Assembly: GCA_905250025.1 (NCBI GenBank)
Contig: CAJNOJ010000251.1
Location: 1-64,000 of the forward strand
Origin: Adineta ricciae
Lineage: Eukaryota; Rotifera; Eurotatoria; Adinetida; Adinetidae
Reading direction: 5' to 3'
DNA: 64,000 nt
Below, piece after piece: positions 2,247-53,796 of this stretch (positions within the stretch are counted from its first letter, which is position 1; each line of letters begins with the position of its first letter). The notes beneath the pieces are model-generated. The model ran no database searches, was not told the DNA's origin, and worked only from the letters and a program-made list of their open reading frames with translations. Position numbers and translations under genes: made by a program.

Positions 2247-3266
2247 TCAGTGGATTTGATGATCTACAGCGTCGTGATCGGTTGCTCTTGCTGCTGGGAG
2301 ACGACGAAGTATCTTTCTTTGAAATAAATGAATCAATTCTCGACGAAAGATTTCCGAGGAGACGAGAAAATTCGTCAATGTCAAGGAAAATCCCAGATAA
2401 ACTAAAAGATACGTCATGTTGCTCACAAATATCTCAGTCGCACGACAAAATGAAGATCTAACCACTTGTAATGTCATTGAACGATATATAAGAAAACAAG
2501 GATTTGGCAGATTAAGAATTAGATATAGGACGATTTGATTAGCCAACATTCGATGTAATTGAACATCTTTCTTCGATATTCTACCCCTTCGATTTCCACC
2601 AATTCTCATCTTTGTTTTATGAATATTTCGCACTGTTAATAAACCGAAGATCAACATCAAGAGTAACGGAAGAATACCACTATCGATGGCGATGTAAATG
2701 CTAAAGAAAATTCCATAACCACTTGATCTATAGCTACAACTACCTGTATTGGTCTCATAAAATACGAGAACTTGAATGTAGATTAGAGACCAGAAGAGAA
2801 CATTGGCGATAATCAGTCGGAGAGCAGTTTTCGGTGAACTCCATCGACGTCGTAGAGCATTTCGTGAACTGGCAAAATAACGATCAATCGATGCCAAGAT
2901 GATATAATAACGAGGAACAGCCACGAAAATATAAAAGAGATAAAAGCGAATTTTGCAATACCAAAGATTATAATTGAGAGTGCGAATGTCATATCCATAG
3001 TGCAACATACGAGTGAATAAGGCAAAATTATAAGTGAAAAACTGCGAAAGACTAGCAGCGAAGAAAAACATTGCACATGGAGTGTTTCAGTAAGTTGGTT
3101 GAGTAAAAATAATACACATGAGAATCGAACCAATATTTCCAACAAACCAAATGACGCTGCTACCATATTGAGTAATAGTTTTGTTTAAATTATTGACCAT
3201 GTCAATAAGTTCAATTTGATCATCGATAGCAAGAGTAACAGTACTGTTTGTAATTATATTCGACAT
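2247..3266 (-). pseudogene. Rhodopsin-like GPCR copy with one in-frame stop
   Basis: From ATG at 3266 to the stop at 2247 this is 340 codons, exactly the length of the intact receptor at 4098-5117, to which it is an inverted paralogue. The reading is complete apart from TGA at 3087-3089 (codon 60, just after helix 1), where the intact copy has CGA (Arg). A TM3-end motif DRYFASS, a Gly/Arg/Lys-rich third loop and an NPCFL stretch are present. The middle 653 bp are almost identical to the partner, whereas the first about 40 codons and the last about 80 codons are clearly diverged. The stop makes it a probable recent pseudogene; a sequencing error or read-through of that codon is the alternative. 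Confidence 0.8.
2490..3142 (-). repeat. Near-identical inverted tract (partner 4201-4853)
   Basis: 653 bp in inverted orientation to 4201-4853 with no length difference and only about half a dozen substitutions noticed by eye. Identity drops abruptly on both sides although both flanks are still homologous coding sequence of the same two receptors. This is the pattern of a gene-conversion tract between inverted paralogues. Confidence 0.75.
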
Positions 3267-4097
3267 AATTTAAAAGATCCTGAAGAAGATAGAACATATT
3301 TTAATGCGTGTGTAGGTAAATGATACCCAAGATGACATACTTATGACTTACTGAATACACACAACGTTTAATTGAATGTTAAGAGAGTTGTCACAGACAA
3401 ATCTACACAATATAATAACGGATGAAATATTCTTTTCTCACTATTAACTTAATATGAGAGACTTTCTCAGAACATTAAGCTCGTCTTTTATCCGTGATCT
3501 ATTATCCTCAGCTCAACATTGCGTATCTCATCTAACGCTGCTTCGTCTTCTATCGACCTCTAAATGAGTTTCTTTGCAGTTCGAATTAATGACATCATTT
3601 CCGGTTGCAAAATTTGTGTGATCAATTGTTCCATTTAGACACGATTTCATGCAGATATGTATACTTTACATTTAATGAGCATTACACGACATTGCGAACG
3701 TACCAATGAGCTCATAACGAGCGTATAGAAGACATAAGATAGTTTATTTCTATTCTAAATGGATTTTACCATAATTATGCATAAATAATCCATTTAATGG
3801 AATGAAAAAAAAATGAAGTGAACAGATGAATTCTTTTGTATCCTCAGTCCACGTGAGAATTTCTATTATATCATTAAGGGAAAATGTTCCGTCAGACGTC
3901 AGTATTATATCTCCTTCGAAATTATCACTTAAACCATTTCGTCGTTATTTGTATCTGTTAACCGATCCAATAGATTCCAACTCTTATGTCTATGATTTCT
4001 GTGAGATTTTCTCGACAAAATACATTTCACTACAGCAGTCGTATAACTTCATTAAGTTTCGTCAAATTTATTTTCTAGACGAATATAAAACATCGCA
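3267..4097. promoter_or_regulatory. Head-to-head intergenic region between two receptors
   Basis: 830 bp separating the ATGs of two divergently oriented receptor paralogues, so it should contain both promoters. AT-rich. A weak 91-codon frame at 3826-4101 has no recognisable features. I cannot point to a defined promoter element or a symmetric repeat between the two halves. Confidence 0.4.
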
Positions 4098-5117
4098 ATG
4101 AATAACACCAACGTCCTCTCCAATGGTGATCACCTCGTTTCACTTATCAATTTTCTCAACAAAACCATCTCAGAAATTGGTTTTGCCTTTATTCTCTTGC
4201 TTGGAAATATTGGTTCGATTCTCATGTGTATTATTTTTACTCAACCAACTTACCGAAACACTCCATGTGCAATGTTTTTCTTCGCTGCTAGTCTTTCGCA
4301 GTTTTTCACTTATAATTTTGCCTTATTCACTCGTATGTTGCACTATGGATATGACATTCGCACTCTCAATTATAATCTTTGGTATTGCAAAATTCGCTTT
4401 TATCTCTTTTATATTTTCGTGGCTGTTCCTCGTTATTATATCATCTTGGCATCGATTGATCGTTATTTTGCCAGTTCACGAAATGCTCTACGACGTCGAT
4501 GGAGTTCACCGAAAACTGCTCTCCGACTGATTATCGCCAATGTTCTCTTCTGGTCTCTAATCTACATTCAAGTTCTCGTATTTTATGAGACCAATACAGG
4601 TAGTTGTAGCTATAGATCAAGTGGTTATGGAATTTTCTTTAGCATTTACATCGCCATCGACAGTGGTATTCTCCCGTTACTCTTGATGTTGATCTTCGGT
4701 TTATTAACAGTGCGAAATATTCATAAAACGAAGATGAGAATTGGTGGAAATCAAAGGGGCAGAATATCGAAGAAAGATGTTCAATTACATCGAATGTTGG
4801 CTAATCAAATCGTCTTATATCTAATTCTCAATCTGCCAAATCCTTGTTTTCTTGTATATTATTCATTTGCTTTGAATATGTCGAAATCAGCAGTTCAAAT
4901 TGCAGCAGAATCATGGGCGAGTAACATGACGTATCTTTTAGTTTATCTGGGATTTTCTTTAACATTCGTGAATTTCATGATTTCATCGGATATATTTCGA
5001 CAAGAATTTTTCTGTTTATTTCAAAGAAAAATACTCCGTCGTCGGATCGTTATGAATAGAACTGTTGGCCAATCAACGGTGTTGCAAACGGCTGCTCAAA
5101 ATGACACTAATGTTTAG
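4098..5117 (+). CDS. Rhodopsin-like (class A) GPCR, orphan
   Basis: A 339-residue single-exon receptor. Seven hydrophobic segments can be laid out; helix 1 carries GNIGS (Asn of the GN motif, about residue 37), the end of helix 3 reads DRYFASS (DRY motif), helix 7 has a divergent end and the C-tail is basic then polar. Asn-rich N-terminus with glycosylation sites (NNT, NKT). It is a plasma-membrane receptor of unknown ligand; bdelloids carry very many single-exon receptors like this, loosely similar to peptide receptors. Intact, unlike its inverted twin at 2247-3266. Start chosen because it gives the N-glycosylated N-terminus and full length equal to the twin. Confidence 0.85.
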   Translation: MNNTNVLSNGDHLVSLINFLNKTISEIGFAFILLLGNIGSILMCIIFTQPTYRNTPCAMFFFAASLSQFFTYNFALFTRMLHYGYDIRTLNYNLWYCKIRFYLFYIFVAVPRYYIILASIDRYFASSRNALRRRWSSPKTALRLIIANVLFWSLIYIQVLVFYETNTGSCSYRSSGYGIFFSIYIAIDSGILPLLLMLIFGLLTVRNIHKTKMRIGGNQRGRISKKDVQLHRMLANQIVLYLILNLPNPCFLVYYSFALNMSKSAVQIAAESWASNMTYLLVYLGFSLTFVNFMISSDIFRQEFFCLFQRKILRRRIVMNRTVGQSTVLQTAAQNDTNV

Positions 5118-34100: not shown

Positions 34101-36218
34101 TTATAGTGAAAAAAATGTGAAAATGATGCAGATTAAGAGGAGGGATAGTGTGATTTGGATCGATGTGGAGATCGAGCGACAATCGACGTTGGCACAATCG
34201 TCGAATTTCACTTCGAAACGATTGTCTTCTTCAACACCTTTGATACCTAAATAAACATATTCAACATCTTCTTCGTCTTCCGGTTTATCGATCACCAAGG
34301 AGATTTCTTCTCCTTCATCGACTGCTCGATCGTATTTCGGAAGGAATTTCGATGACGAAGTGGAAGGCAAGGATGAAAATGTTGATGTTGACGTTGTTGT
34401 GACGTAATTACCGAAATCGATTGGATCTTTGGGATTTTTACTTGTAAATGAAAAGAATACCTTCACTTTTCCATTGAATAACTTCACGATGATCTTGATT
34501 TTGTTTCCGACAATGATAATTTTGATTTTCAAAAATTTGTATTTATCTTTTCCACATTCGCCCGTCACGGTCGTATTTTCTGCGATAGGTGCTGGCTCGG
34601 AGCAAGTCTTCGCAGTGAATTGATTTAGTTTCTGATCGAGTGCCGCGTAATTTGTAATTGGGAAATAATTTTCACTCGCTGGTTCAGTACAAATGGCGTT
34701 TAATTCTACCAGATCGAGTTTATTTCCAACACCAACACTAACGATGTGAATGCCATTGGCTTTCAAAACTTTTGCTGCCGCAATCGTTGCCTTTCGATCA
34801 GCACTTTCTCCATCGGTTATGACGAAAATCACAGGTGCTGCACCATCTTCGGGCAATCGTAAACCATTTTTATACGAAAAAACCCTGGCTGCTTGTTTCA
34901 ATGCACCGGCAGTGTCTGTTCCTTTACCGAAGTAAGTCGCCTTATCAATTTTCTTCAATTTCTGGCTTAGTTTATAATCGGTAGTTAACCAAGTTAAAAT
35001 TTCGATTTCGCCCGAATAATTGATTACACCAACGTGAGTCTTGTTTTCTCCAACGTTGGCTCGTTGAAGCAAATCTTTGGTGAATTTCAATTGCAATTCA
35101 TAATTCTTTGATCCCACACTTCCACTAGCATCCAAAACAAATCCTAAGTCCATTTTCAACTCCTGACTGCATGTGTCTAAACAGCATCGAACATGCGGGG
35201 GACTATTTGGGCATTGCGGACCGATTCCACCACTACATCCGCAATATTCACCAGCATCTTCCAAACCTTGAATACAATCAGGTGAACAAGTACCAGTATG
35301 AGTGGAATTGAATTGACAAGCACCACCTTGACCGGGATATAAATCACCACCGCAGCCCAAATGACGAAGGAATTTCGAATAAAGTTTTGTTGCCGTGGCA
35401 AGATTTTCGATGCTGCCGGTTAGTCGATACCTATTTGGAGGAGAAAGAAGAACATCGAGATTGATTTGTTTAGGAAACTTACCAAAGCGTGGAGAAGCCG
35501 TAAAATGTACCATCAGCATGTTCTGTCAATGGCGGACCTGAAAGGAAACAGAACTTTTTCGATAAATCATTCAATAGGACCGTTTACCGTTGAGTAAATC
35601 TGGTTTTTTCCACAGTGCAGCAGCGATTTCAATAGCATTATCAACAAACGCAGCTAATTGTGGATTAGCCATAATTGTTTGATATTTGGGAAGTGTTGTT
35701 TGTACTCGTTGGTACATAGTTCGACCTCGAAGACCAAAGAAACCTCGTCGACGAAAGAGAGATCCATCACCAGCTTGTGTATTTCCATATTTTCCATCAT
35801 CATCGGTAAATTCCGATGAGTGACCTTGTGCTTCGTCTTTTTGAAAATTATCGGTCATCGTTGCCGCGATGGCTAAGAAAGCCGCTTTTGCTTGACAATT
35901 AGTACAAATTCCGGCAGAATTGATTGCATAACTCAATATTTTTTGAAGAAATATCGCCCGTTCCGTTTTATACAATGGAACAAAATCACTTTCAGTAAGA
36001 CAAACACTTGGTGATGGTTTCGTAGCGAGTTTTACACAACATCCACCTCCCTCGCATCCACCTGCAGCCAATAAACTCCCTTGACAGTTTTTATGCGACT
36101 GACATTCACCGCTAATCGATTCATTGTAACTTCCAACACATCGTTGAGCCTGAGTTGTCGAGAGAAAAACCAGTCCGAAGATGAGAAGAAACTTCTTCAT
36201 CGTGAAGATATGAAACAA
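34101..36218 (-). CDS. Chitinase-like (GH19-type) / von Willebrand A fusion protein
   Basis: Exons 35588-36218, 35483-35537 and 34101-35430; 2016 nt, 671 residues (653 or so if the second Met at 36200, which gives a cleaner signal peptide, is used). After the signal peptide and a Cys-rich knob, residues 75-230 resemble the GH19/lysozyme fold (GDGSLFRRRGFFGLRGRTMYQRV, compare the family's GRGxxQLxGRxNY). The usual catalytic HET region appears replaced (AIAATMTDNF). A Cys-rich linker leads to a vWA domain (about 320-500) with an intact MIDAS: DASGSVG, the Thr of GTDTAG, and ITDGES. A Ser/Thr linker and a hydrophobic C-terminus (membrane or GPI anchor) follow. Probably a surface or secreted binder of chitin-like glycans; role unproven. 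Confidence 0.8.
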
Positions 36219-36605
36219 GATGTTGCAAAGATATCACTTTTATACAGCGGAGTTTTATTGTTTGTGCAAAGGTTGTTTCAATATTGATCCAGCCTACATC
36301 GTTATTATTAACGCCACCCACAACTACTCAACTTACCAATGACAGTCATTTAACGAATTTTTACGGTTCGAAAAGATTTCTCAGATCAGCAAATATTGAC
36401 AGTCTTTGAAGATCATTGTATTCGATTCGAGACGAGCATTATACTGACCGATTTGTATCTTGGAAAAAAGACTTTTATCAAAGTATTTTGCACATGATAC
36501 TAAAAAGTACATATTAAACAAAGATAACCTTCGACCAGGTTGGTAACTTAGTCGATTGTTATCTCAGCATGACATGAATGAAACAAACGCCTTTGTTTTT
36601 ATCTT
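36219..36605. other. Spacer between vWA and F-box genes
   Basis: Shared promoter/3' flank; repeated with high identity in the second copy (40446-40833). No gene seen. Confidence 0.4.
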
Positions 36606-38291
36606 TTAACGAATCCATAAACGAATATGTGATGTTTGATTCGCATCTCGATCGACTGAACATGTAGAAGGTAAATGTCGATGGAACCAATGGAGAAATC
36701 CATCGTCAAACGGATCATCTTTGCATTGGAAAGTCAACGAGTGAAGATTCGGAAGAGATTTTGCTAAATAAATCACATCCGTTCGACTTTCGACGGGTAT
36801 TAGAAGTGATTTGCATTGAGATCCAAGAGAAGAATGACGTAAAGTTGAGCATTGTTGTTTTGTAAAATAGTTTTTGTAAACATTTTTGGTTAAAAAATCT
36901 AATCGACGAACCGATTGACTTGTTAATTTCGATACAATTTCCATATCAGAACATTTACCGAAACAGATCGATTGAAGTCGAGATGATCGATCGAGTAACA
37001 CTTGGAATGGAATGTAAATCGATCGTTCAACAAATGTAATTTCCAACGATATCAATCGATCAAACCATGGAAGTGACAACCAAAACTGATTTCCTAATGG
37101 AAGATTCAACTTTAAATGATCAACATTTCTAAAATCATCAAGTTTCTCGTTAAGATTGATCACTGTAAGATTATTCACACAATGAAATGATTGATAATTG
37201 ATATTCTGAGGAGAAGTTGACTTTGACCAATATTTGTTTGTTAAAAGATATTCATCGAATGTGTACGGAATTGTGTATAAAGTAGCTAATTGACTGATTC
37301 CGAAGTTGAACCAATCACATTGAACGAACCATTGTTTATCTTCAATCCAGAATTGTGTTTGAAAAGATTTGATCAATTCTTCTAATTGTTCTTCGATATG
37401 TTTTGGATGAGGAAATTTCATTTCCATTTTTAATTGAAAATCTTCTAATTTTGGTAAACAATTACGAATAATCTTTTTCCAATCATTTCCAGTTAAATAT
37501 AAACGAAAGGTTTGAATGACCATTCGTTTTAAAAATGGGAAATTTTGAAATAAAATGTACATGAAATCAAATGATTTTCGAAAGGAAATTTTGAGTAAAG
37601 TGATGGTTGATGGTTTCTCCAAATGAATTCGATCGGTTTCCAATCGTTGAATTAAACTTACATTCAATTGTCGAAGCGATGGCGTACATTGAAATAAATG
37701 CGTCAATACATTCAGATCAACTTGAAAATTCTCCAACGAAAGATTTTCCAAAGTCGAATTTCTCGTTTCATTTATCAATTTCAAATCGTATGGAAATCGA
37801 TGATCGATTCGACACGAAATTAACTTTTTCAGATTCCAAATATTTTCAATTAAATCAACAAACATCTTCTGATCTTTAAAATCACATTTGAACAAACATA
37901 ATCGTCGTAAATTTGTTAACCGTCGACATTCGAACAGAAGTTCATTGACCAACGAAAGGCAATTCACCGAATCAATGCATAACGATTGTAAACGAACAAA
38001 TTCAAATCGATACGAATAGAATCGATTGAATAAATTCGGTGTTTGATCATCATTTGACAAAAATAACGATTTAACACGATGACTAATCGATGGAAAATGT
38101 TCTTTACAAATCAAATCAAACTCACGTTTGGAGATCGATCGAAAATCGAAATGATAAACTCGAGAATGAATGGCCAATAGTCGATTCAATCGACAATTCA
38201 AACCATAGAAAGCACAATATAGTTGAACATCATGAAGATATTGAAAAATTTCAAGTAAAACTTCATTTGGCAGCCATTCGAATTGTAACAT
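36606..38291 (-). CDS. F-box protein with leucine-rich-like repeats
   Basis: A single exon of 561 residues from ATG 38291. Residues 4-45 are an F-box (LPNEVLLEIFQYL, then a CAF...LNCRLNRLL helix). The rest is an array of irregular 25-30-residue units rich in Leu, Cys and Asn (LTNLRRLCLFKCDF, LQSICFGKCSD, LPNLHSLTFQCKDD), resembling degenerate LRRs. F-box proteins are substrate receptors of SCF ubiquitin ligases. Bdelloids carry large families of this type. A truncated second copy is at 40834-41594. Confidence 0.8.
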   Translation of the reverse strand: MLQFEWLPNEVLLEIFQYLHDVQLYCAFYGLNCRLNRLLAIHSRVYHFDFRSISKREFDLICKEHFPSISHRVKSLFLSNDDQTPNLFNRFYSYRFEFVRLQSLCIDSVNCLSLVNELLFECRRLTNLRRLCLFKCDFKDQKMFVDLIENIWNLKKLISCRIDHRFPYDLKLINETRNSTLENLSLENFQVDLNVLTHLFQCTPSLRQLNVSLIQRLETDRIHLEKPSTITLLKISFRKSFDFMYILFQNFPFLKRMVIQTFRLYLTGNDWKKIIRNCLPKLEDFQLKMEMKFPHPKHIEEQLEELIKSFQTQFWIEDKQWFVQCDWFNFGISQLATLYTIPYTFDEYLLTNKYWSKSTSPQNINYQSFHCVNNLTVINLNEKLDDFRNVDHLKLNLPLGNQFWLSLPWFDRLISLEITFVERSIYIPFQVLLDRSSRLQSICFGKCSDMEIVSKLTSQSVRRLDFLTKNVYKNYFTKQQCSTLRHSSLGSQCKSLLIPVESRTDVIYLAKSLPNLHSLTFQCKDDPFDDGFLHWFHRHLPSTCSVDRDANQTSHIRLWIR

Positions 38292-38467
38292 TTCGTTCGA
38301 ATGTGAAAAGAAAAGAAAATTCGTTTTTCTTAGGTGACGTCGATTTTATTCATATGTAAAAAAGAAACTGTTTTGTTTTTCTTCGTCAACGATCGATTAG
38401 ATAAAGGTTAAAAGGGAATGAATAAACATGCTAATATGACTAAAAGGAGAGAAAAATGAGGTTTGAT

Positions 38468-41400
38468 TTATAATTTGTTGGTGGCGTTAAGATCATTAAA
38501 TGCTTCTTCAACACGTTTCTTCATTGAATTTTCAGCTTCGCGTAACCAAACACGAGGATCATAGAATTTCTTGTTTGGTTTGTCTTCGGCATCGAGAAGA
38601 CCTTGAAGACGATTTTCGTTTTTCTTGTAGAATTTCAAAATACCTTCCCAATAAGCATATTGAGTATCGGTATCGATATTCATTTTGACAACACCGTNTT
38701 CCATTGAATAACTTCACGATGATCTTGATTTTGTTTCCGACAATGATAATTTTGATTTTCAAAAATTTGTATTTATCTTTTCCACATTCGCCCGTCACGG
38801 TCGTATTTTCTGCGATAGGTGCTGGCTCGGAGCAAGTCTTCGCAGTGAATTGATTTAGTTTCTGATCGAGTGCCGCGTAATTTGTAATTGGGAAATAATT
38901 TTCATTCGCTGGTTCAGTACAAATGGCGTTTAATTCTACCAGATCGAGTTTATTTCCAACACCAACACTGACGATGTGAATGCCATTGTCTTTCAAAACT
39001 TTCGCCGCCGCAATCGTTGCCTTTCGATCAGCACTTTCTCCATCGGTTATGACAAAAATCACAGGTGCTGCACCATCTTCGGGCAATCGTAAACCATTTT
39101 TATACGAAAAAACCCTGGCCGCTTGTTTCAATGCGCCGGCAGTGTCTGTTCCTTTGCCGAAGTAAGTCGCTTTATCAATTTTCTTCAATTTCTGATTTAG
39201 TTTATAATCGGTAGTTAACCAAGTTAATATTTCGATTTCGCCCGAATAATTGATTACACCAACATGAGTCTTGTTTTCTCCAACGTTGGCTCGTTGAAGC
39301 AAATCTTTGGTAAATTTCAATTGCAATTGATAATTCGCTAGTCCTACACTTCCACTGGCATCCAAAACAAATCCTAAGTCCATTTTCAACTCCTGACTGC
39401 ATGTGTCTAAACAGCATCGAACATGTGGAGGACTATTTGGACATTGTGGACCGATTCCACCACTACATCCACAATATTCACCAGCATCTTCCAAACCTTG
39501 AATACAATCAGGTGAACATGTACCAAAATGAGTGGAATTGAATTGACAAGCAGCACCTTGACCGGGATATAAATCACCACCGCAGCCCAAATGACGGAGG
39601 AATTTCGAATAATGTTTTGTTGCCGTAGCAAGATTTTCGATGCTGCCGGTTAGTCGATACCTATTCGGAGAGGAAAGAAGAACATCGAGATTGATTCGTT
39701 TAGGAAACTTACCAAAGCGTGGAGAAGCCGTAAAATGTACCATCAGCATGTTCTGTCAATGGTGGACCTGAAAGGAAAGAGAGTTTTTTCGATAAATCAT
39801 TCAATAGAATCGTTTACCGTTGAGTAAATCTGGTTTTTTCCACAATGTAGCAGCGATTTCAATAGCATTATCAACAAACGCAGCTAATTGTGGATTAGTC
39901 ATTGTTTGATATTTGGGAAGTGTTGTTTGTACTCGTTGATACATAGTTCGACCTCGAAGACCAAAGAAACCTCGTCGACGAAAGAGAGATCCATCACCAG
40001 CTTGTGTATTCCCATATTTTCCATCATCATCGGTAAATTCCGATGAGTGACCTTGTGCTTCGTCTTTTTGAAAATTATCGGTCATCGTTGCCGCGATGGC
40101 TAAGAAAGCCGCTTTTGCTTGACAATTAGTACAAATGCCAGCAGAATTGATTCCATAACTCAATATTTTTTGAAGAAATATCGCCCGTTCTGTTTTATAC
40201 AATGGAACAAAATTATTTTCAGTAAGACAAACACTTGCTGATGGTTTCGTAGCGAGTTTGACACAACATCCACCTCCCTCGCATCCACCTGCAGCCAATA
40301 AACTCCCTTGACAATTTTTATACAACTGACATTCACCATTAATCGATTCATTGTAACTTCCAACACATCGTTGAGCCTCAGTTGTCGAGAGAAAAACCAG
40401 TCCGAAGATGAGAAGAAACTTCTTCATCGTGAAGATATGAAACAAGATGTTGCAAAGATATCTCTTTTATATACTGGAGTTTTATTGTTTGTGCAAAGGT
40501 TGTTTCAATATTGATCCAGCCTACATCGTTATTATTAACGCCACCCACAACTACTCGACTTACCGATGACAGTCATTTAACCAATTTTTATGATTCGAAA
40601 AGATTTCTCAGATTAGCAAATATTGACAGTCTTTGAAGATCATTGTATTCGATTTGAGACGAGCATTACACTGACAGATTGGATTTTGGAAAAAAAAGGC
40701 TTTTATCAAAGTATTTTGCACATGATACTAAAAAGTACATGTTAAACAAAGATAACCTTCGACCAGGTTGGTAACTTAGTCGATTGTTATCTCAACATGA
40801 CATGAATGAAACAAATGCCTTTGTTTTTATCTTTTAACGAATCCATAAACGAATATGTGATGTTTGATTCGCATCTCGATCGATTGAACATGTAGAAGGT
40901 AAATGTCGATGAAACCAATGGAGAAATCCGTCGTCAAACGGATCATCTTTGCATTGGAAAGTCAACGAGTGAAGATTCGGAAGAGATTTCACTAGATAAA
41001 TCACATCCGTTCGACTTTCGACGGGAATTAGAAGTGATTTGCATTGAGATCCAAGTGAGGAATGACGTAAAGTTGAGCATTGTTGTTTTGTAAAATATTT
41101 TTTGTAAACATTTTTAGTTAAAAAATCTAATCGACGAACCGATTGACTTGTTAATTTCGATACAAATTCCATATCAGAACATTTACTGAAACAGATCGAT
41201 TGAAGTCGAGATGATCGATCGAGTAAAATTTGGAATGAAATGTAAATCGATCGTTCAATAAATGTAATTTCTAACGATATTAATCGATCAAACGATGGAA
41301 ATGACAACCAAAACTGATTTCCTAATGGAAGATTCAACTTTAAATGAGTAACATTTCTAAAATCATCAAGTTTCTCATTAAGATTTATGACTGTAAGATG

Positions 41401-42203
41401 ATTTACACAATGAAATGATTGATAATTGATATTCTGAGGAGAAGTTGACTTTGACCAATATTTGTTTGTTAAAAGATATTCATCGAATGTGTACGGAATT
41501 GTGTATAAAGTAGCTAATTGACTGATTCCGAAGTTGAACCAATCACATTGAACGAACCATTGTTTATCTTCAATCCAGAATTGTGTTTGAAAAGNNNCAG
41601 ATCTTCATCGGAGCCATACGAGTTAAATATTTCTTACAAGCAGCAATGTTATTCTCTTTGGTTTCTTCGGAGAAATCGAGCATATGAGAGCTGAACAACG
41701 GTTCACCATGTTCTTTGAAATAAGCTTCATCGGCTTCGAGCATACCAACAAACCTAAAATATCAATCAAAATACATTACTTTTCATACTGAAAATTCTTT
41801 ACCATGGTTCTAATTTCTTCGCACAATGATCACTATGTAAAACGACGGGTACACCATAATGTTTCGCAACAGTACGAGCATGATGTGCAGCAGCAATTGC
41901 GCCTAGGATACTCGCAGCTTGTCCATCATTGTTTAAACCTTTACCAGCAAAGAATTGCGCACCACCTTGAGAAATTTGAATGATAACTGGCGATTTAGCA
42001 TCGCGAGCGGCTTCAAGAACAGCGTTGATTGCTGACGATGACGTGACATTAATAGCTGGAATAGCAAATTGATGCTCTCGAGCATAAGTAAATAATTTCA
42101 ACACATTATCACCGGTCAAAACACCTGTAAATAAATCTAAAAAGTTCTTTTCTTTACAGAGAGGTTTTACTTTACCTGTTGGAACTATATCAAGTACACC
42201 CAT
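38468..42203 (-). CDS. Class II fructose-bisphosphate aldolase, interrupted in the assembly
   Basis: 5' exons 42176-42203, 41803-42124 and 41753 down to the NNN at 41597 give the N-terminal half (FAIPAINVTSSSAINAVLEAARDAKSP, then VVLHSDHCAKK with the Zn-binding His, LFSSHMLDFSEE). The C-terminal end lies at 38697-38468 (VVKMNIDTDTQYAYWEGIL, NKKFYDPRVWLREAE). The middle, including the GCTGGEEDG region, is absent; in its place is a 2.9-kb copy of the neighbouring genes bounded by N (38698) and NNN (41595-41597). The gene is therefore probably intact in the animal and broken only in the assembly. Class II (metal-dependent) aldolase is the fungal/bacterial type, splitting fructose-1,6-bisphosphate in glycolysis. 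Confidence 0.85.
38698..38698. other. Single-N assembly join
   Basis: One N between the aldolase C-terminal exon (left) and the truncated vWA gene copy (right). Confidence 0.9.
38699..40445 (-). CDS. Chitinase-like/vWA fusion protein, second copy (3'-truncated by N)
   Basis: Exons 39818-40445, 39713-39767 and 38699-39660 repeat the structure of the gene at 34101-36218. The exon-1 region has one codon fewer (MTNPQL for IMANPQL), with scattered substitutions (for example SVGLANYQLQL for SVGSKNYELQL). MIDAS residues are conserved. It ends at the N at 38698 within the region after the vWA domain, so the linker and membrane tail are not shown. Function as for copy 1. The frame is intact, so both copies look alive. 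Confidence 0.8.
40834..41594 (-). CDS. F-box/LRR-like protein, second copy (5'-truncated by N)
   Basis: Frame open from the NNN at 41595 down to the stop at 40834, matching about the last 250 residues of the F-box protein at 36606-38291 with few changes (LVKSLPNLHSL for LAKSLPNLHSL). The F-box itself is not included. No internal stop seen, so truncation is by the assembly join rather than by decay. Confidence 0.75.
41595..41597. other. NNN assembly join
   Basis: Three Ns between the truncated F-box copy and exon 3 of the aldolase. Confidence 0.95.
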
Positions 42204-45025: not shown

Positions 45026-45032
45026 TATACAG
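45026..45032 (+). promoter_or_regulatory. Possible spliced-leader acceptor before operon gene 1
   Basis: A tatacag acceptor-like site eight bases before ATG 45041. Consistent with trans-splicing of the first cistron; weak by itself. Confidence 0.35.
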
Positions 45033-45040
45033 TAAAATAA

Positions 45041-47392
45041 ATGGGGATTGAAACTTCAAAATATGGCTCCGGTCATTCAAAAGAAATCACATCAACAGCA
45101 TCTGCAAGTGCTGCATCATCACCTATCGATAGTTTCTATCCGTATGAAACTTTCACACTCGTCTGGTTGGATCGAGATGCTGATTCAAACCCAAATAAAA
45201 AGATCCGAGCTGATTTACGTGATCGTTTTTCATTCTGTCTGACTTTTACTGACAACACACTGTTTGAACAATGGTTAAAAGCTCAATCAGAACGTACGAA
45301 AATCTTTCTTGTTGTATCTGGTCAATACGGTGAAACAGTGATCCCCAAAATTTGTAATCTACCATCGATTATTACTATTTATGTCTTCTGCAAACATATC
45401 GAAAAACATGAAGGGTGGTCCAAACCTCTTCCGAAAGTTCGCGCGGTCGTGTCGAGAAAAGCCGAACTTCTGCAATCGATTCGTAAGGATGAAGAACTTT
45501 ATAATAATCTTGAAGACTTCCGAACAACTCAAATAGTTAAAGATCACACTCAAGACAACGCACCATACCTTGCATTTGAACTTCTTCTAGAAATTCTCAC
45601 ATCACCAGTATATCTCGAGCCAGCAAGATTTCCTGCGGAATTTTTCAAAAAACTTCGCCAAGATTATTCGGAGGATAAAGACGCTTCCATACTTTTAACT
45701 GAATTTGAAGAAAAGTATGAGGAAAAGTACGCGATGGAATTATTGACGGCAAATACACCATTTAGTCGCTTTATCAGCAAAGCGTTACGTGAACAAGACA
45801 TTTCCTTACTTTTCGATCTTCGCTATTTCCTCGAGCATTTATCGGATCAAATCAAAGATAATCGGGAACGATTGGGATGTGGTTATCGAATACAATACAT
45901 GATGCCACAAACAATTGAAAATCTTCAAGCAAATATCGGCAAACATTTAGTCTATAACGGATTTTTACGTGTTTCTGCTGACCGACCTGACCTGATCGAA
46001 TATAATGATCATAAAATGGACATTCAAACAGTTTTAATTGACGTTACTGTGGATAGTGTCGCTGATTTTGCGTCTATTGCGTGTTTAAACAAATTTTCTG
46101 GTTTGAACAATAACTCAGACATTATCTTCACATGTGGTGCCATATTTAAAATCGTCGTGGTCAAAAATATTGAACGAACAACGTGGATTCTCAATTTAGA
46201 ATTGGCCAGTGAAATCGATTTAAAAGCATTACATAAAAAAAAGAGCGAATTAAGTCGAAACAAGGATCTACTTATCATTAATAATCTTCTCGGACAATCA
46301 GATCAGTCAACAATATTTTGTCAAAAACTTCAACAAAATCTTCCGGGAAATCATCCTTTATTATCCAAAGTAAAACAAATTGCTTGTAAGTCTGACACCA
46401 TTCCAACTTCCCCCAAACCGCAATCAAGTATGTCAACATTCTCAACCATAAAATATCCCAATTGTCTTCATTTTCTTTTAGTTGTATTGAAAAATACGCA
46501 ATTTATCCTCTTGGGTTTATCGAAAAACATGACTCCAATTGCTACTGCCATGTTCAAAGCGTTACATTCATTAATGAACGAGACTGTCGTATCATATGAC
46601 AATCCTTCAGAGATTCCTCATAGTACAATGAATGACAAAATATGGATGGTATTTACGACTAATCAAATGAATCTTTCGACAGTGAAAAAAGCGAGTCCTT
46701 CGGCGAAATTTTTCGTTTTGGAAACAGATGAGGCGAAAGTGAATAATTATGAGCGATTCGGTTCGGACGAAGATTTGATGTTTCAAATGAGTGACGAACT
46801 TTACCGTTGTTTTCACTTGGAAGCAGATGAAGATTGGAGAGAAGGTGAGGAACAACTGTCAAAACAAAAACAAGCAATCGCAAAAAAGATTCATGAAAAA
46901 TTAAAAGAAGTTTATCAACAATTTCCTGAACCAAATCTTAATGAGAAATCGAAACTTTCGACAAAGTTTGTGGTATTATGGTTACAAGGTCAACAAGAGA
47001 ACAAGAATTATACGAAAAAAATCAACAAACTTTTTGAAAATATTCTTTCGTTTACTTTCTACAATAATCCGGAAGATTGTTGGGGGGAAATACTCACAGT
47101 GGAACAGGACACACACCTATTCATCGTTATTGACGAGAGTTATTCTGACAACGATATAGTCGGAATCATAGCTGATCAACACGAGAAGAAAATCTACCGT
47201 TCAACTCCAATTCAACCGGATGCAAAAGGCAAAATACATGACAAAACTTCATTTTTACTAATATATGATCTAATTGAACGTTATAGTGAACTCGGTAGTG
47301 AATTTCAATCGAGAAAGGATCCTAGAAACGCGAAAGATATGTTTACTCGTGCGCAACAGTTGTGCAAATGTCTTATCGAACTTGATAAATAA
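45041..47392 (+). CDS. ART-like multidomain protein, operon gene 1
   Basis: A 783-residue uninterrupted exon. MGIETS at the start fits an N-myristoylation signal. Residues 35-150 form the N-terminal Rossmann-like domain of the rotifer ART-TPR family (LVWLDRDAD, TKIFLVVSGQYGETVIPKI, ITIYVFCKHIEKHEGWSK). Residues 180-410 follow the family's helical linker and ADP-ribosyltransferase-like fold (KHLVYNGFLRVSADR, IIFTCGAIFKIVVV), but the canonical family motif residues are not recognisable, so enzymatic activity is doubtful. Residues 470-783 appear to contain another copy or two of the N-terminal type domain (KFVVLWLQGQQENK, THLFIVIDESYSD) and end in a TPR-like helix pair. Role unknown; sensor or scaffold is a guess. 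First gene of a probable trans-spliced operon. Confidence 0.7.
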   Translation: MGIETSKYGSGHSKEITSTASASAASSPIDSFYPYETFTLVWLDRDADSNPNKKIRADLRDRFSFCLTFTDNTLFEQWLKAQSERTKIFLVVSGQYGETVIPKICNLPSIITIYVFCKHIEKHEGWSKPLPKVRAVVSRKAELLQSIRKDEELYNNLEDFRTTQIVKDHTQDNAPYLAFELLLEILTSPVYLEPARFPAEFFKKLRQDYSEDKDASILLTEFEEKYEEKYAMELLTANTPFSRFISKALREQDISLLFDLRYFLEHLSDQIKDNRERLGCGYRIQYMMPQTIENLQANIGKHLVYNGFLRVSADRPDLIEYNDHKMDIQTVLIDVTVDSVADFASIACLNKFSGLNNNSDIIFTCGAIFKIVVVKNIERTTWILNLELASEIDLKALHKKKSELSRNKDLLIINNLLGQSDQSTIFCQKLQQNLPGNHPLLSKVKQIACKSDTIPTSPKPQSSMSTFSTIKYPNCLHFLLVVLKNTQFILLGLSKNMTPIATAMFKALHSLMNETVVSYDNPSEIPHSTMNDKIWMVFTTNQMNLSTVKKASPSAKFFVLETDEAKVNNYERFGSDEDLMFQMSDELYRCFHLEADEDWREGEEQLSKQKQAIAKKIHEKLKEVYQQFPEPNLNEKSKLSTKFVVLWLQGQQENKNYTKKINKLFENILSFTFYNNPEDCWGEILTVEQDTHLFIVIDESYSDNDIVGIIADQHEKKIYRSTPIQPDAKGKIHDKTSFLLIYDLIERYSELGSEFQSRKDPRNAKDMFTRAQQLCKCLIELDK

Positions 47393-47410
47393 ACCAGAAC
47401 AATTCTTTTT

Positions 47411-47432
47411 TTTTCTTCTTCTTTTCTTTTAG
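47411..47432 (+). promoter_or_regulatory. Pyrimidine-rich splice acceptor abutting ATG (operon gene 2)
   Basis: A C/T tract ending in ttttag directly followed by ATG at 47433, only 40 bp after the stop of gene 1. Predicted spliced-leader trans-splice site. Confidence 0.6.
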
Positions 47433-47996
47433 ATGGCAAAACACATTCATCATATAAAATTTTCCGAAGTTCCTTACCTCGACTGTCAACCATGGATTAT
47501 CATCCTTCATCAATTAGACGAATCCGGTACCATCATTCGCCTCCCAACCGCAGATGCATTAACATTTCTTCGCCCATTTAATGACATCATTCACTGTCAG
47601 AACCATATTAAATCACACGAACGAAACCCATTTGCATTATTCGGACATGAAGACAATATCCGAACATGGTTTTACAATAATAATATTATTCCAGATAATC
47701 TTGAAGATATTATTGTCTTTGGTGTTGATAAAAAAGATTTAAGAAGTTTCAAACAATGGTTGAGACGATACAGTCGGAATATTCAAACTGTTCTTCCGAC
47801 TGATCAATTGGAAAGAGAATTGATTATGTTTGGAATGAGACACATTGAGAATGTACTGGATGACTTTCAAGATCCAAATACAAAAAATTTATTGAAACAA
47901 GATTTGCAAAAACTTCATGCAGCTTTAGATGATTGTTTAATGAGAATTAATCAAATATTAGATAACGAAATTGCGATGAGTGTTGAAGCGAAATGA
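47433..47996 (+). CDS. Small Rossmann-like domain protein, operon gene 2
   Basis: A 187-residue protein, no signal peptide or membrane helix. Landmarks: a hydrophobic strand (WIIILHQLD), LRPFNDIIHCQNHI, an Ile-rich strand (LEDIIVFGVDKKD), a Trp-containing helix (SFKQWLRRYSRNIQTVL) and a charged C-terminal helical region. These line up in order with the N-terminal domain of operon gene 1 (VWLD, FLVVSG, IYVFC, HEGWSKPLPKVRAVV). I infer a stand-alone version of that domain. No family known to me. Paralogous to genes 3 and 4. Confidence 0.7.
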   Translation: MAKHIHHIKFSEVPYLDCQPWIIILHQLDESGTIIRLPTADALTFLRPFNDIIHCQNHIKSHERNPFALFGHEDNIRTWFYNNNIIPDNLEDIIVFGVDKKDLRSFKQWLRRYSRNIQTVLPTDQLERELIMFGMRHIENVLDDFQDPNTKNLLKQDLQKLHAALDDCLMRINQILDNEIAMSVEAK

Positions 47997-48051
47997 GTTT
48001 TTTGTCTCAAATTAAATGTTTGATTTAATACATATCTAATTAATTCTTTCT

Positions 48052-48064
48052 TGTCGTATTTTAG
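48052..48064 (+). promoter_or_regulatory. Splice acceptor abutting ATG (operon gene 3)
   Basis: tgtcgtattttag directly followed by ATG at 48065, 68 bp after the stop of gene 2. Confidence 0.6.
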
Positions 48065-48628
48065 ATGGAAGATTTAAATAAAATTAATTTCAATCCGATC
48101 TATCAGAACAAATCACGAGGTATTTCTTTACTCTTCGAAAATTCCGGACAAAATAGAGTGATTCGTTTACCCAATGCACAGATTATGCCATTTCTACGTT
48201 ATTTCAACAACACTTTCAACGCACAGAGTCACATAAGTCTAAATTCTCAACGATCCTACGATTTATTTGCTGATGGTGAGGATATGTTATCATGGCCATT
48301 TATGCAAAACAATGCATTTTCCCCGCGAAACTTACAAAGAATAATCATCTTTTGTCAAGATGATGCTGAAAAGAGATTTTACAGAAAATGGGCAAATCGT
48401 TTTCCTCAAATTGTTCGGATATTGCATATAAATGAACTTGATGAAAATGTTCTACGACTTGGTATTTATCACATTCAAAACTTGAGATTTCACGTGTCCG
48501 AAGACAGTATTTTAAATCGTTATCAACAAGATTACCTTGCACTCTGTCGAGCTTTGGGAGATACATTCAATGCACGAATAACTATCGCAAATGACGAAAT
48601 TTCTACTGGGGTACAGGCAGAAAATTAG
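48065..48628 (+). CDS. Small Rossmann-like domain protein, operon gene 3
   Basis: 187 residues, the same length as gene 2 and aligned end to end with it and with gene 4: FLRYFNNTFNAQSHI, NLQRIIIFCQDDAEK, FYRKWANRFPQIVRIL, ending in a long helical tail. The IIIFC strand and the Trp helix are closer to operon gene 1 (IYVFCKHIEKHEGWSK) than those of gene 2. Soluble, presumably cytosolic. Function unknown. Confidence 0.7.
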   Translation: MEDLNKINFNPIYQNKSRGISLLFENSGQNRVIRLPNAQIMPFLRYFNNTFNAQSHISLNSQRSYDLFADGEDMLSWPFMQNNAFSPRNLQRIIIFCQDDAEKRFYRKWANRFPQIVRILHINELDENVLRLGIYHIQNLRFHVSEDSILNRYQQDYLALCRALGDTFNARITIANDEISTGVQAEN

Positions 48629-48682
48629 ATACTTTTGGAAAAAAAACTCTTTTTTTTTCTTTGAATGAAAGCCGAGTTTCTC

Positions 48683-48695
48683 TTTTTTATTTTAG
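48683..48695 (+). promoter_or_regulatory. Splice acceptor abutting ATG (operon gene 4)
   Basis: A T-rich tract ending tttag immediately before ATG 48696, 67 bp after the stop of gene 3. Confidence 0.6.
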
Positions 48696-49268
48696 ATGGC
48701 TGCCCTAAATAACACATACTACGATCCAATCTACTCCCAAAGACGTTTAGCAATGGCGATGCTACTCAATAATGCTGAAGAGCCCGACATTACCGCTCAT
48801 TTATCTCATATACATCTCATGACATTTCTACGGCATTTTCCTAATCCGGATCTTGCAAGACAAGAAATGAGTAATTCTCCTCAAACGAGTTTTAGATTAT
48901 ATATATCTCCAAACTATATGTTACAATGCTCTTTTGCTGATCACAATACAATTTCACCTGCAAATCTCAACAGAATCGTTATGTTTTATTCAGATCTCGT
49001 TGGTGAACATTCTGCTTCACGATGGAGAATACGTTTTCCGCAAATTATTAGGCCATGGTCGAAAAACATTCTCGAACTACATATTTTACTGAAAGGATGT
49101 CGACTTATTGAAGAATTGTGTCCCGAAGTCGAGGAAAATGCTATTCAGAATCGCATGGAAGACGATCGTACACGCATTTTTGAAGCTCTAAATATGGCAT
49201 CTGGTGCTTTAATCGAAAATGCCAATGCGCAAATTGCAATGGGTGTTCAACCCGACGAAGTCAATTAA
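48696..49268 (+). CDS. Small Rossmann-like domain protein, operon gene 4
   Basis: 190 residues; third paralogue: TFLRHFPNPDLARQEM, NLNRIVMFYSDLVGE, SRWRIRFPQIIRPW, then a helical C-terminus ending in a polar tail (AQIAMGVQPDEVN, compare IAMSVEAK and ISTGVQAEN in genes 2 and 3). Last gene of the operon; its stop lies 50 bp from the stop of the convergent tubulin gene. Function unknown. Confidence 0.7.
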   Translation: MAALNNTYYDPIYSQRRLAMAMLLNNAEEPDITAHLSHIHLMTFLRHFPNPDLARQEMSNSPQTSFRLYISPNYMLQCSFADHNTISPANLNRIVMFYSDLVGEHSASRWRIRFPQIIRPWSKNILELHILLKGCRLIEELCPEVEENAIQNRMEDDRTRIFEALNMASGALIENANAQIAMGVQPDEVN

Positions 49269-49317: not shown

Positions 49318-50709
49318 TCACTCAATACTTTGATATTCATCAATTAAATCGTTTAGATTGTTTTCTGCTTCGGTGAATTCCTAAAAATACAATTGATGAG
49401 AGATTTTTCATGAAGAAATTGTGTAACTGACCATTTCATCCAATCCGGAACGACATAAACCAAATATATAAAGTTTCCGACGAAACATCGCTGTGAATTT
49501 CTCCAAAAATCTCTGAAATATCTCTTTCATACCCATATGATTACCAATCATTGTTAACGATCTTTCAAATTCTTTTAATGGAACTCGACAGAAAGTTGTT
49601 TTGCTATCTGGGAAATATTCATCGATTTTTTGTAATGAGATTTGTCCACGAAAGATCGATGTCATCGCGTGACATTGACCTTGTTGAAAATTACAAGGCA
49701 TCATCAGATTGGTGTTATCAAACATTTGTTTTCTTAGTTCGGATAATGACAGAGAGAGCATCGGAGTCAAACTGGAGGTGAGAAAATGCAGACGAATATA
49801 TGGACTTGAATATGTTGTGAATTTTCTCATATCCCCGTTGATTTGATCAGGAAATCGAAAACATGTGGTGATACCAGATATGACATTCGCGATGATTTGA
49901 TTGAGATCTTCGAAGGTTGAAGAGAGTCGTCGTTTCAACAAAGTTTCATTGTCGAATAAACAACTCGAATCACAATTCTCGATTAGATGATGTAAACCAA
50001 GAACGATATTGTACGGTTCAATCACCCGTTCGGGAATTTCCGATGAACTTAAACAACTAAATGTCATTATAAGTCCTAGAACCAAAATTTTTATCTTATC
50101 AAAATGAAATTCTTTCATTCTTACGATCAGGATATTCATCTCGAAGTTGATTGAGGATAAACGATCCAAAACCTGATCCAGTTCCACCGATCAACGAATG
50201 AGTCATTTGAAATCCTTGAAGATTATCACAAAGCTCAACTTGTTGACGAATTTTATTCGAGACAAGATCAGCCAGTTCAACATTTTGAAGACAATATCCC
50301 ACACCCCAATTTGATGCACAACTATATTCACCTGCAATTATCATCTGATCTGAAGGAAACTGTTTCCCAACTGATGAATTTCGTATGGAATTCATCATAT
50401 CTGGATCAAAATCAGCGAGAATTGCACGAGGACGATATTTTCCGTCTGTGTATTTTCAGAGATACAAAACTCTTTCAATCAATCAGCATACCTGATGTTT
50501 GATCGAAATACGTATGGATACGGTCACGACAAAGATCTGATTGATCGAAATAGATTCCTGTTGAATCGATACAATGTTCATCGAAAATACAATTCCAAAA
50601 CTGAAAAAAGAACTGAGAAAACGAAATGAATGAAGTTTGAATGTTGTGATACTTTCGAACCAATTCGATTTCCACATTCACCGAGTTGAATATGAATTAT
50701 TTCATGCAT
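49318..50709 (-). CDS. Highly divergent beta-tubulin-like protein
   Basis: Exons 50653-50709, 50492-50600, 50125-50445, 49432-50075, 49318-49380; 1194 nt, 397 residues (beta-tubulin about 445). Order of landmarks is that of beta-tubulin: IIHIQLGECGNRIG, RPRAILADFDPDMM, LQGFQMTHSLIGGTGSGFGS (GTP-binding GGGTGSG changed to IGGTGSG), DEYPDR, VIEPYNIVLGLHHLIEN, FRFPDQINGDMRK, FTAMFRRK, EFTEAENNLNDLIDEYQ. The autoregulatory MREI start is MHEI. About 20 residues usual before the TAVCDIPP-like segment (here TTFCRVPL) are missing, and there is no acidic tail. The frame is open throughout, so it may be a functional specialised tubulin, but the divergence is extreme. Confidence 0.8.
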
Positions 50710-50823
50710 TTTTAAAATAACGTAGTCAACATGCAATTCATCAACAAACAAACAAATGACATTGGCTCAATAAAATCACCAATTAGAATTTATTAATCTT
50801 TTTTTTTCGAAAAAAAGGCAAGT

Positions 50824-51779: not shown

Positions 51780-52383
51780 CGTGAATAAGACATGGCACTC
51801 AATATCGAATACGCTGAAACACTTCATAATCATGTCGTCATGTGGGTGGATGAACATATTGTTATACTTGAGAATAATGAAAGAACGATTTCGTCGTGTT
51901 ACGTATTATTTGCATACGTTTGTTGATATCAATTCAACAAAGGAATTTATTGAAGAATCACAACAAGCCAACAAAATAGTTTTTCTCATTATTTCTGGTG
52001 TTTTAGCTGATCAGCTTGTCCCTCAAGTCTACAATTATTCAAATCTTAGACAAATCTTTATATTTACATCACAAATGGGGAACCATGTCGGATGGACTAT
52101 TGATTATATCGAAAAATTCTTCTGTATAATTTTGATGAAGATCTGCTCATTCGGTTGACGAATGAAATTGCGAATTGTTAGTTTGAGGAAGCAAAAACAA
52201 AGCAGGAAAAACAAGGTAACACCGGACAAGCAGCGAGTTTACTGGACTGGGCTTCTGTGGCTGTACAAAGACACGGATACTTTGAATCAAGAATTTTGTC
52301 GAGAGCAGCGCAACAACATCAAAGAAAAACGTGACAAACGTTCGATTGATCATCAAATGATTTTTGAAAAACGATTTGAATAA
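51780..52383 (+). pseudogene. Fossil of a rotifer ART-TPR family gene, 5' part
   Basis: Pieces of the N-terminal Rossmann-like domain are readable (VVMWVDEHIVILENNER; KIVFLIISGVLADQLVPQV; LRQIFIFTS), then after a break the conserved helical linker (TNEIANCLFEEAKTK, QAASLLDWASVAVQRHG, ESRILSRAAQQHQ). The rest of the gene, including the transferase region, is absent. A few breaks; clearly dead. Confidence 0.65.
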
Positions 52384-52480: not shown

Positions 52481-53796
52481 ATGTCTATTCATTCGCGAGA
52501 AATGTTGATAAATCTTGCAGGTGATGTAATGATCGGTCGATTGATCGATCAACTTCTTCCAACATCTGTTCATAATCCCGAAGAAGCGAAAATTGTACAA
52601 CAATTTCGATTATCTCGAACTGTTCGGTATCCTTATTTAGCTAAAGAGAGATATAATTATTCGACAATTTGGGGAAATACTTTGTCATTATGGAAAGAGG
52701 TAGACTTTATCTTCATGAATACAGTTCAACTTTATACTTCTTTGTTAATAAGGGAAATTTGAATATTATCAATTTGGAAACATCAGTCACAACACATGAC
52801 AAACTTTGGCCAAATAAAGTTTTTAAGTACGATTTGATTATTCATTTGAAAAAAAAACACGTTTTTTTTCTTTGTTAGTTATCGCACACATCCCGAGAAT
52901 CTAAATTGTTTAACTTCAGCACATATTCACCATGTTTCATTAGCGAATAATCATACATTAGATTTTGATGTCAAAGGTCTCGAACAAACATGTGAAAGTC
53001 TCGATCAATTCGATCTATCCTATGTTGGTAAGTGAATTTCTTTCCAATTTTTGTAGATTAATTTCTTCATTCAGGTGCGGGTAAAACACGTTCACATGCT
53101 CTCGGTCCGATTTATCTCGATATCTCTCCGTCGTCCAAACCAGTATCTGTTGAAGCGTCAACATCTCGTTCATCATCGTCCATTCGAGTTGGTTTAATTT
53201 CAGCATCTGATCATCCATCAGATTGGTCACGTGTTTCTTCATTTCATTTCTTTGATTATCATGATCGTTCGGTTTTATCTTCGTTGATCATCACTGCTCG
53301 TTCCAATGCTGATTTCGTCATTTGTTCGATTCATTGGGGTCCAAATTATCAATGGCGACCGGAGAGAAAGATTCGTGAACTTGCTCATTGGATGATCAAT
53401 GAAGGTGTTGATGTCATTCATGGACATTCCAGTCATCATATTCAAGGAATCGAACTTTTTCCACGACAAAATCGAAATCCTGCATTGATTATTTACGGTT
53501 GTGGTGATTTTCTTGATGATTACGCAATCGATGAACAATATCGAAATGATTTAAGTGCACTTTTTCGGTTAAATTTGTCAATTTCCACGTCCGAGTCAGA
53601 TCAAAGCAAATTCGTCAGTATTCATTCGCTTTCAATTTATCCAACACGATGCTCAAATTTTCAAGTCAATCGATTAGATCATGACGATGCCGATTGGAAG
53701 TGGATTAAAGACAAACTTACGGAATTAAGTGATTTACACGATAAAACCTGGATTGTTGGCGAGAATCATAATCTTGTACTAAGAATTTCTTCTTAA
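52481..53796 (+). CDS. CapA-family (poly-gamma-glutamate biosynthesis-like) protein
   Basis: Exons 52481-52699, 52753-52826, 52879-53027, 53075-53796; 1164 nt, 387 residues. Landmarks of the CapA/PgsA metallophosphatase-like fold in order: NLAGDVMIGR, INLETSVT, HHVSLANNHTLDFD, ICSIHWGPNYQWRP, GVDVIHGHSSHHIQG, NPALIIYGCGDF. The Asp, Asn and His positions of the metal site are all present. Bacterial relatives help make or anchor capsule polyglutamate; similar genes occur in fungi and as acquired genes in rotifers. No signal peptide seen. Three short introns (one with an AAG acceptor) mean that, if acquired, the gene has been domesticated. Biochemical role in an animal is unknown. Confidence 0.85.

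Follow-up and report, generated by a model that had tools for sequence, protein, structure and literature searches.

In the bdelloid rotifer Adineta ricciae, we examined a stretch of 64,000 nucleotides (assembly GCA_905250025.1, contig CAJNOJ010000251.1, positions 1 to 64,000 of the forward strand), referred to here as the window, which holds at positions 45026 to 49268 a compact cluster of four open reading frames (ORFs) considered as a candidate spliced-leader (SL) operon. The cluster consists of one long gene followed by three small ones, with the following features:

45026 to 45032, + strand: weak acceptor-like TATACAG, ending 8 nt 5′ of the gene 1 ATG
45041 to 47392, + strand: gene 1, a single ORF of 783 amino acids (aa), no recognised family
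47388 to 47393, + strand: AATAAA over the gene 1 stop codon, a possible poly(A) signal or a chance occurrence in AT-rich DNA
47393 to 47432, + strand: gap 1-2, 40 bp, GT absent, with a pyrimidine tract that ends in TTTTAG
47433 to 47996, + strand: gene 2, 187 aa
47997 to 48064, + strand: gap 2-3, 68 bp, ATTAAA at 48011, five GTs, ending in TTTTAG
48065 to 48628, + strand: gene 3, 187 aa
48629 to 48695, + strand: gap 3-4, 67 bp, AATGAA at 48664, ending in TTTTAG
48696 to 49268, + strand: gene 4, 190 aa
49305 to 49310, + strand: AATAAA, 36 nt past the gene 4 stop codon, a possible end of the unit

A preliminary description of this locus, made from the letters alone, had reported four ORFs on the same strand separated by 40, 68 and 67 bp, with the start codons of genes 2, 3 and 4 directly abutting a splice acceptor, and the ORF coordinates confirm both statements. 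TTTTAG precedes the ATG at 3/3 downstream genes, including gene 4, whose acceptor had been given as tttag and is present with one T more. The sequence TTTTAGATG is found three times on the + strand and not at all on the - strand of the whole window, and 3/3 of these sites are the starts of genes 2-4. The number of sites is in itself unexceptional, as 60 first-order Markov simulations gave an average of 0.8 per strand, and the notable part is that all three fall at the starts of long ORFs. TTTTAG itself occurs 62 times in the 128,000 positions of both strands, a rate from which the chance of three given starts all following it was calculated by hand as about 1e-10, and that for any three of 31 ORFs as about 5e-7; these figures assume independent starts, an assumption that does not hold for tandem duplicates, and so overstate the case. 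The TTTTAG sites of genes 2-4 share ancestry and do not represent three independent chance events. Among the 31 ATG-initiated ORFs of at least 150 aa, four directly follow a YAG, namely genes 2-4 and one ORF on the - strand preceded by CAG at 32156. The 12 nt preceding the YAG hold 12, 9 and 11 pyrimidines in genes 2, 3 and 4, and the starts of these genes are the only ATGs on the + strand of the window that follow a YAG with at least 9/12 pyrimidines. Three sites of the same kind on the - strand head ORFs of 81, 18 and 47 aa, with 2.5 such sites expected per strand.

The three small genes had been described as paralogues, and BLASTP bears this out, with E-values of 4e-24 (2 v 3), 5e-29 (3 v 4) and 2e-8 (2 v 4). 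The matches start at residue 1 (3 v 4), residues 4-5 (2 v 3) and residues 22-23 (2 v 4), and the multiple alignment contains 28 invariant columns, Met1 among them. Divergence was estimated by the Nei-Gojobori method on 184 (2 v 3), 184 (2 v 4) and 187 (3 v 4) codons. The proportion of differing synonymous sites (pS) was 0.763 (2 v 3), 0.698 (2 v 4) and 0.706 (3 v 4), and the nonsynonymous distance (dN) 0.73, 0.98 and 0.66 in the same order, while the synonymous distance (dS) was 2.0 (2 v 4) and 2.1 (3 v 4), rough estimates so near saturation, and for 2 v 3 beyond correction. Since silent sites are close to saturation, the duplications behind genes 2-4 are, judging from these distances, old, and the encoded proteins appear to be constrained. 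Despite this divergence, the 6 bases upstream of the ATG are identical in 3/3 pairs; the 34 bases preceding TTTTAG match at 15, 10 and 13 positions in the three pairs. The acceptor seems to be selectively kept, and the simplest reading looks to be selection for a 3′ splice site that directly adjoins the start codon. It could also be proposed that genes 2-4 are independently transcribed tandem duplicates in which TTTTAG is a mere relic of the duplicated unit. Their origin by tandem duplication gives these sites a common source, as such a view expects, yet a relic would hardly have stayed identical at 6/6 positions while silent sites approached saturation, and a gap of 40 bp would scarcely accommodate a 3′ end plus a promoter, all of which makes this explanation very improbable.

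Genes 1-4 are best explained, in our opinion, as a tetracistronic SL operon, and we consider this likely on the strength of the sequence. According to this model, a single promoter 5′ of gene 1 would give rise to a single pre-mRNA, in each gap the upstream message would be cleaved and polyadenylated, and the spliceosome would attach a 23-nt spliced leader at the TTTTAG|ATG junction. The 5′ untranslated region (UTR) of the downstream mRNAs would then consist of the leader only, and its terminal GAG would supply a G in place of the genomic T at position -3 relative to the ATG. Genes 2-4 could have arisen by old tandem duplication of an acceptor-bearing unit, each copy thus being a working cistron at birth. 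The operon put forward in the preliminary description is supported by the spacing, the kept acceptor|ATG junctions, the lack of GT in gap 1-2, the absence of a strong-pattern donor closer than 420 nt and the published trans-splicing of bdelloids, while co-transcription and leader addition, like a common function of the four genes, are what we infer from them.

Within 700 nt upstream, strong-pattern donors were found at 588 nt for gene 2, nowhere for gene 3, and at 420 nt for gene 4, and the 40 bp of gap 1-2 contain no GT. GTs located 31-250 nt before each acceptor were also checked for in-frame joining of the adjacent ORFs, with 0/10 suitable at junction 1-2. Leader trans-splicing requires no donor within the gene and fits all three acceptors equally well, and cis-splicing at the gene 2 acceptor is unlikely.

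Several results weigh against an SL operon. The donor patterns fit 4/7 of the hand-read local donors, and weak donors would escape them. Three of the GTs in gap 2-3 precede the acceptor by 47, 61 and 68 nt, the first of these distances being within the local intron range of 46-53 nt. In-frame joining would be possible from 2/5 coding GTs at junction 2-3 (the nearest 83 nt from the acceptor, at 47982) and from 3/8 GTs at junction 3-4 (the nearest at 85 nt, at 48611, reading GGG|GTACAG), and cis-splicing or fusion isoforms are conceivable at the acceptors of genes 3 and 4. Furthermore, no match to the 23-nt SL exon was found within 3 mismatches in the 64 kb window, a motif search of gap 3-4 revealed neither AATAAA nor ATTAAA, and the acceptor-like site reported 8 nt before the gene 1 ATG is indeed present as TATACAG, with a pyrimidine tract that is weak as judged by eye. 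Because the patterns fit only 4/7 donors and a GT in gap 2-3 lies at a normal intron distance, less weight was given to the SL operon and more to the two explanations that follow.

Genes 2-4 could be separate genes with their own promoters, the preceding gene or gap supplying each with a short first exon that is non-coding and cis-spliced to TTTTAG|ATG. In two neighbouring genes, the seven introns that were read by hand measure 46-53 nt, and the cis acceptors of introns read in this way in the window (TTTTTAG, TTCTAG, TTAG) look like TTTTAG, which, together with the GT 47 nt from the acceptor in gap 2-3, would suit such an arrangement. It would, however, require three promoters within coding sequence or tiny gaps, no strong-pattern donor is located less than 420 nt before acceptors 2-4, and gap 1-2 lacks GT altogether, so we regard it as unlikely. 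Alternatively, the cluster could be a single gene that has the gaps as its introns and encodes a fusion product. Short introns are usual locally, and donors could be provided by the coding GT at 48611 (85 nt from its acceptor) and that at 47982 (83 nt), both in frame. Nevertheless, a stop codon closes each ORF ahead of the gap, none of the ten GTs within 250 nt at junction 1-2 is in frame, and the Met1 common to the three aligned paralogues fits separate starts, which leaves the fusion gene as the least probable of the alternatives weighed here.

In regard to the ends of the proposed messages, the pattern of AATAAA and ATTAAA at the gene ends is weak evidence, as poly(A)-like motifs count little in AT-rich DNA. 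A tubulin-like gene, recognised by eye, occupies about 49330-50720 on the - strand and converges on the end of the cluster; its four introns, read by hand, measure 46-52 nt.

Trans-splicing of bdelloid SLs, reportedly described by Pouchkina-Stantcheva and Tunnacliffe in 2005, is a mechanism able to resolve a unit of this kind. Its existence, taken as established in the preliminary description, agrees with the available portions of two publications, one reporting the same 23-nt leader on more than 50% of transcripts in two bdelloid species and none shown in a monogonont (PMC1925144), and the other, a review, giving one 23-nt leader consensus for rotifers, ending in GAG, with no SL2-type leader listed in those portions (PMC3795323). 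In regard to operons, rotifers are entered as ‘ND’ in a table from 2008 (PMC2481426) and are counted, in a paper from 2025 (PMC12460157), with the lineages that show both trans-splicing and operonic transcription, as far as the excerpts of both extend. No described bdelloid operon was found in the literature, of which excerpts were covered and the primary rotifer paper was not.

The closest parallels, drawn from partial texts for tunicates and chaetognaths, lie in three groups of animals. For Ciona an operon gap cut-off of 84 bp is given and for Oikopleura one of 60 bp, with a median of about 100 bp in C. elegans (PMC7986045), while work on flatworms, in the text available, employed a cut-off of 300 bp (PMC12582326). 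The gaps of 40, 68 and 67 bp are all below the values for Ciona and C. elegans, and two of them exceed that for Oikopleura. Tunicate operons (Ciona, Oikopleura) would be alike in employing one SL, which also serves monocistronic genes, and in their short gaps; those of Ciona are mostly dicistronic and almost gapless, whereas four cistrons, three of them paralogous, are present here. In the chaetognath Paraspadella gotoi, likewise a member of Gnathifera, nearly half of the genes are reported to be trans-spliced and 18% to be in operons, with no operon-specific leader, and the operon genes to be enriched in nitrogen and protein metabolism and not grouped by shared complexes (PMC12460157). The absence of an operon-specific leader would be a shared trait, and the difference lies in the cargo, since the A. 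ricciae cluster codes for lineage-specific proteins without a known family. The SL1/SL2 operons of C. elegans resemble the cluster in their same-strand arrangement, in the acceptor 5′ of each downstream gene and in gaps near 100 bp, and differ in having SL1/SL2 leaders as opposed to the single 23-nt rotifer consensus, the review excerpts listing no SL2-type (PMC3795323). By its sequence features, the cluster is a probable further case of the SL operon type known from Metazoa.

Gene 1 had been designated as ART-like (ART, arginine ADP-ribosyltransferase, PF01129), a designation that was not sustained, with no ART match in Pfam or among PDB sequences and a low-confidence fold model. Pfam was searched with the whole protein at E up to 1 and with pieces at E up to 10, HMMER filters dropping most matches above about 0.1, and within these limits no match passed the cut-off and no ART family was obtained at any listed E. 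Two weak matches to PDB sequences (E 0.04 and 1) did not carry the name ART. A match to DUF5343 (E 0.016 for the whole protein, 0.0057 for the C-terminal part) fell short of the Pfam cut-off and was set aside together with the remaining sub-threshold matches of the whole and piece searches, including DUF2884 at E 0.023 for gene 2. In the middle region of gene 1, YR, FLRVS and DIIF lie near the places expected of the R, S and ExE of ARTs. Compared by eye with these motifs, the R-S-ExE triad has candidates for R and S, the glutamate pair being absent at its expected place, and if gene 1 is a relative of ARTs it is probably inactive. Its AlphaFold2 (AF2) model has block means of 31-43 in predicted local distance difference test (pLDDT) score over residues 281-390, too poor to judge an ART fold. 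The fold search returned no match at E up to 0.001 and no ART by title among the best 50 of 668 PDB matches (E up to 10); response regulators among those 50 (best E 0.0025, query TM-score 0.11, root-mean-square deviation 25) were left unused. In the publications on bdelloids or Adineta examined, as far as their available text goes, ADP-ribosylation is mentioned only at the level of Gene Ontology (GO) terms.

At its N-terminus, gene 1 is modelled with an alpha/beta domain at about residues 36-150 (block pLDDT 49-71 over residues 31-140, low-confidence), in which strands and helices seem to alternate in a receiver-domain-like manner, itself a low-confidence assignment. No relatives of gene 1 were confirmed in viral contigs or phages, and a comparison of its parts (N, C1, C2) for internal repeats gave a best E of 0.56. 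A 61-residue stretch of the N-domain matches a downstream ORF (BLASTP E 1e-6), and a relative of this domain is located on the + strand at 51792-52380, about 2.5 kb past the cluster (tblastn 51877-52098, E 2e-4). There, the similarity shifts between frames as seen by eye, which suggests a decayed copy, introns being the alternative.

Pfam yielded nothing above cut-off for genes 2-4, their profile has no match among PDB sequences at E up to 10, and no relatives were confirmed in prokaryote genomes or, for gene 2, in viral contigs. The gene 2 structure model has a pLDDT of 58, and its fold search gave nothing at E up to 0.001. A search of Rfam at the gathering threshold gave no match. Inspection by eye and the comparable order of strands and helices in two low-confidence models raised the suspicion that genes 2-4 are homologous to the N-domain of gene 1; the tests lent this no statistical support, although at such divergence a true relation may escape them. 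Alignment with hhalign gave Prob 0.2 and E 0.38 in a different register, BLASTP gave E 0.91 for gene 3, and gene 2 reached E 0.14-0.18. The best domain of a profile search against the N-domain scored -0.0 bits, the top ten of 500 shuffles scoring 1.6 to 6.9, and 50/200 column shuffles scored equal or higher in the comparison of genes 2-4 with this domain.

The notable feature of the cluster is that its downstream cistrons are tandem duplicates, each retaining an acceptor. A unit made up of tract, TTTTAG, ATG and ORF would be self-sufficient, because the leader provides the cap, the UTR and the start context. One could go further and propose an operon growing by tandem duplication of such units, with the small proteins being stand-alone versions of the gene 1 N-domain and all of them residing in one complex, an extended scenario that we consider rather doubtful. 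If true, each duplicate arising inside the transcription unit would be expressed at once, and one domain family would exist in separate and fused forms. Joint action of the four proteins would likewise be something we infer. An operon of four cistrons, three of them paralogues that each bear an acceptor, would be a simple case of how operons can gain cistrons by duplication.

Further features were noted elsewhere in the window. Two tandem blocks on the - strand (34101-38345 and 38559-41604) look near-identical by eye, the second including N bases. Their ORFs are of three sorts, one F-box-like as judged by eye and two searched against Pfam in the first copy, where one matched a VWA domain (E 1.8e-33) and the other nothing. 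On the + strand, at about 52481-53796, there is a gene with short introns and the bacterial capsule-synthesis domain PGA_cap (E 4.9e-28 for 53062-53796), possibly an old horizontal acquisition. Finally, two inverted G protein-coupled receptor (GPCR)-like ORFs at 2247-3086 (- strand) and 4089-5117 (+ strand) are near-identical by eye, with 7tm_1 found in the second.

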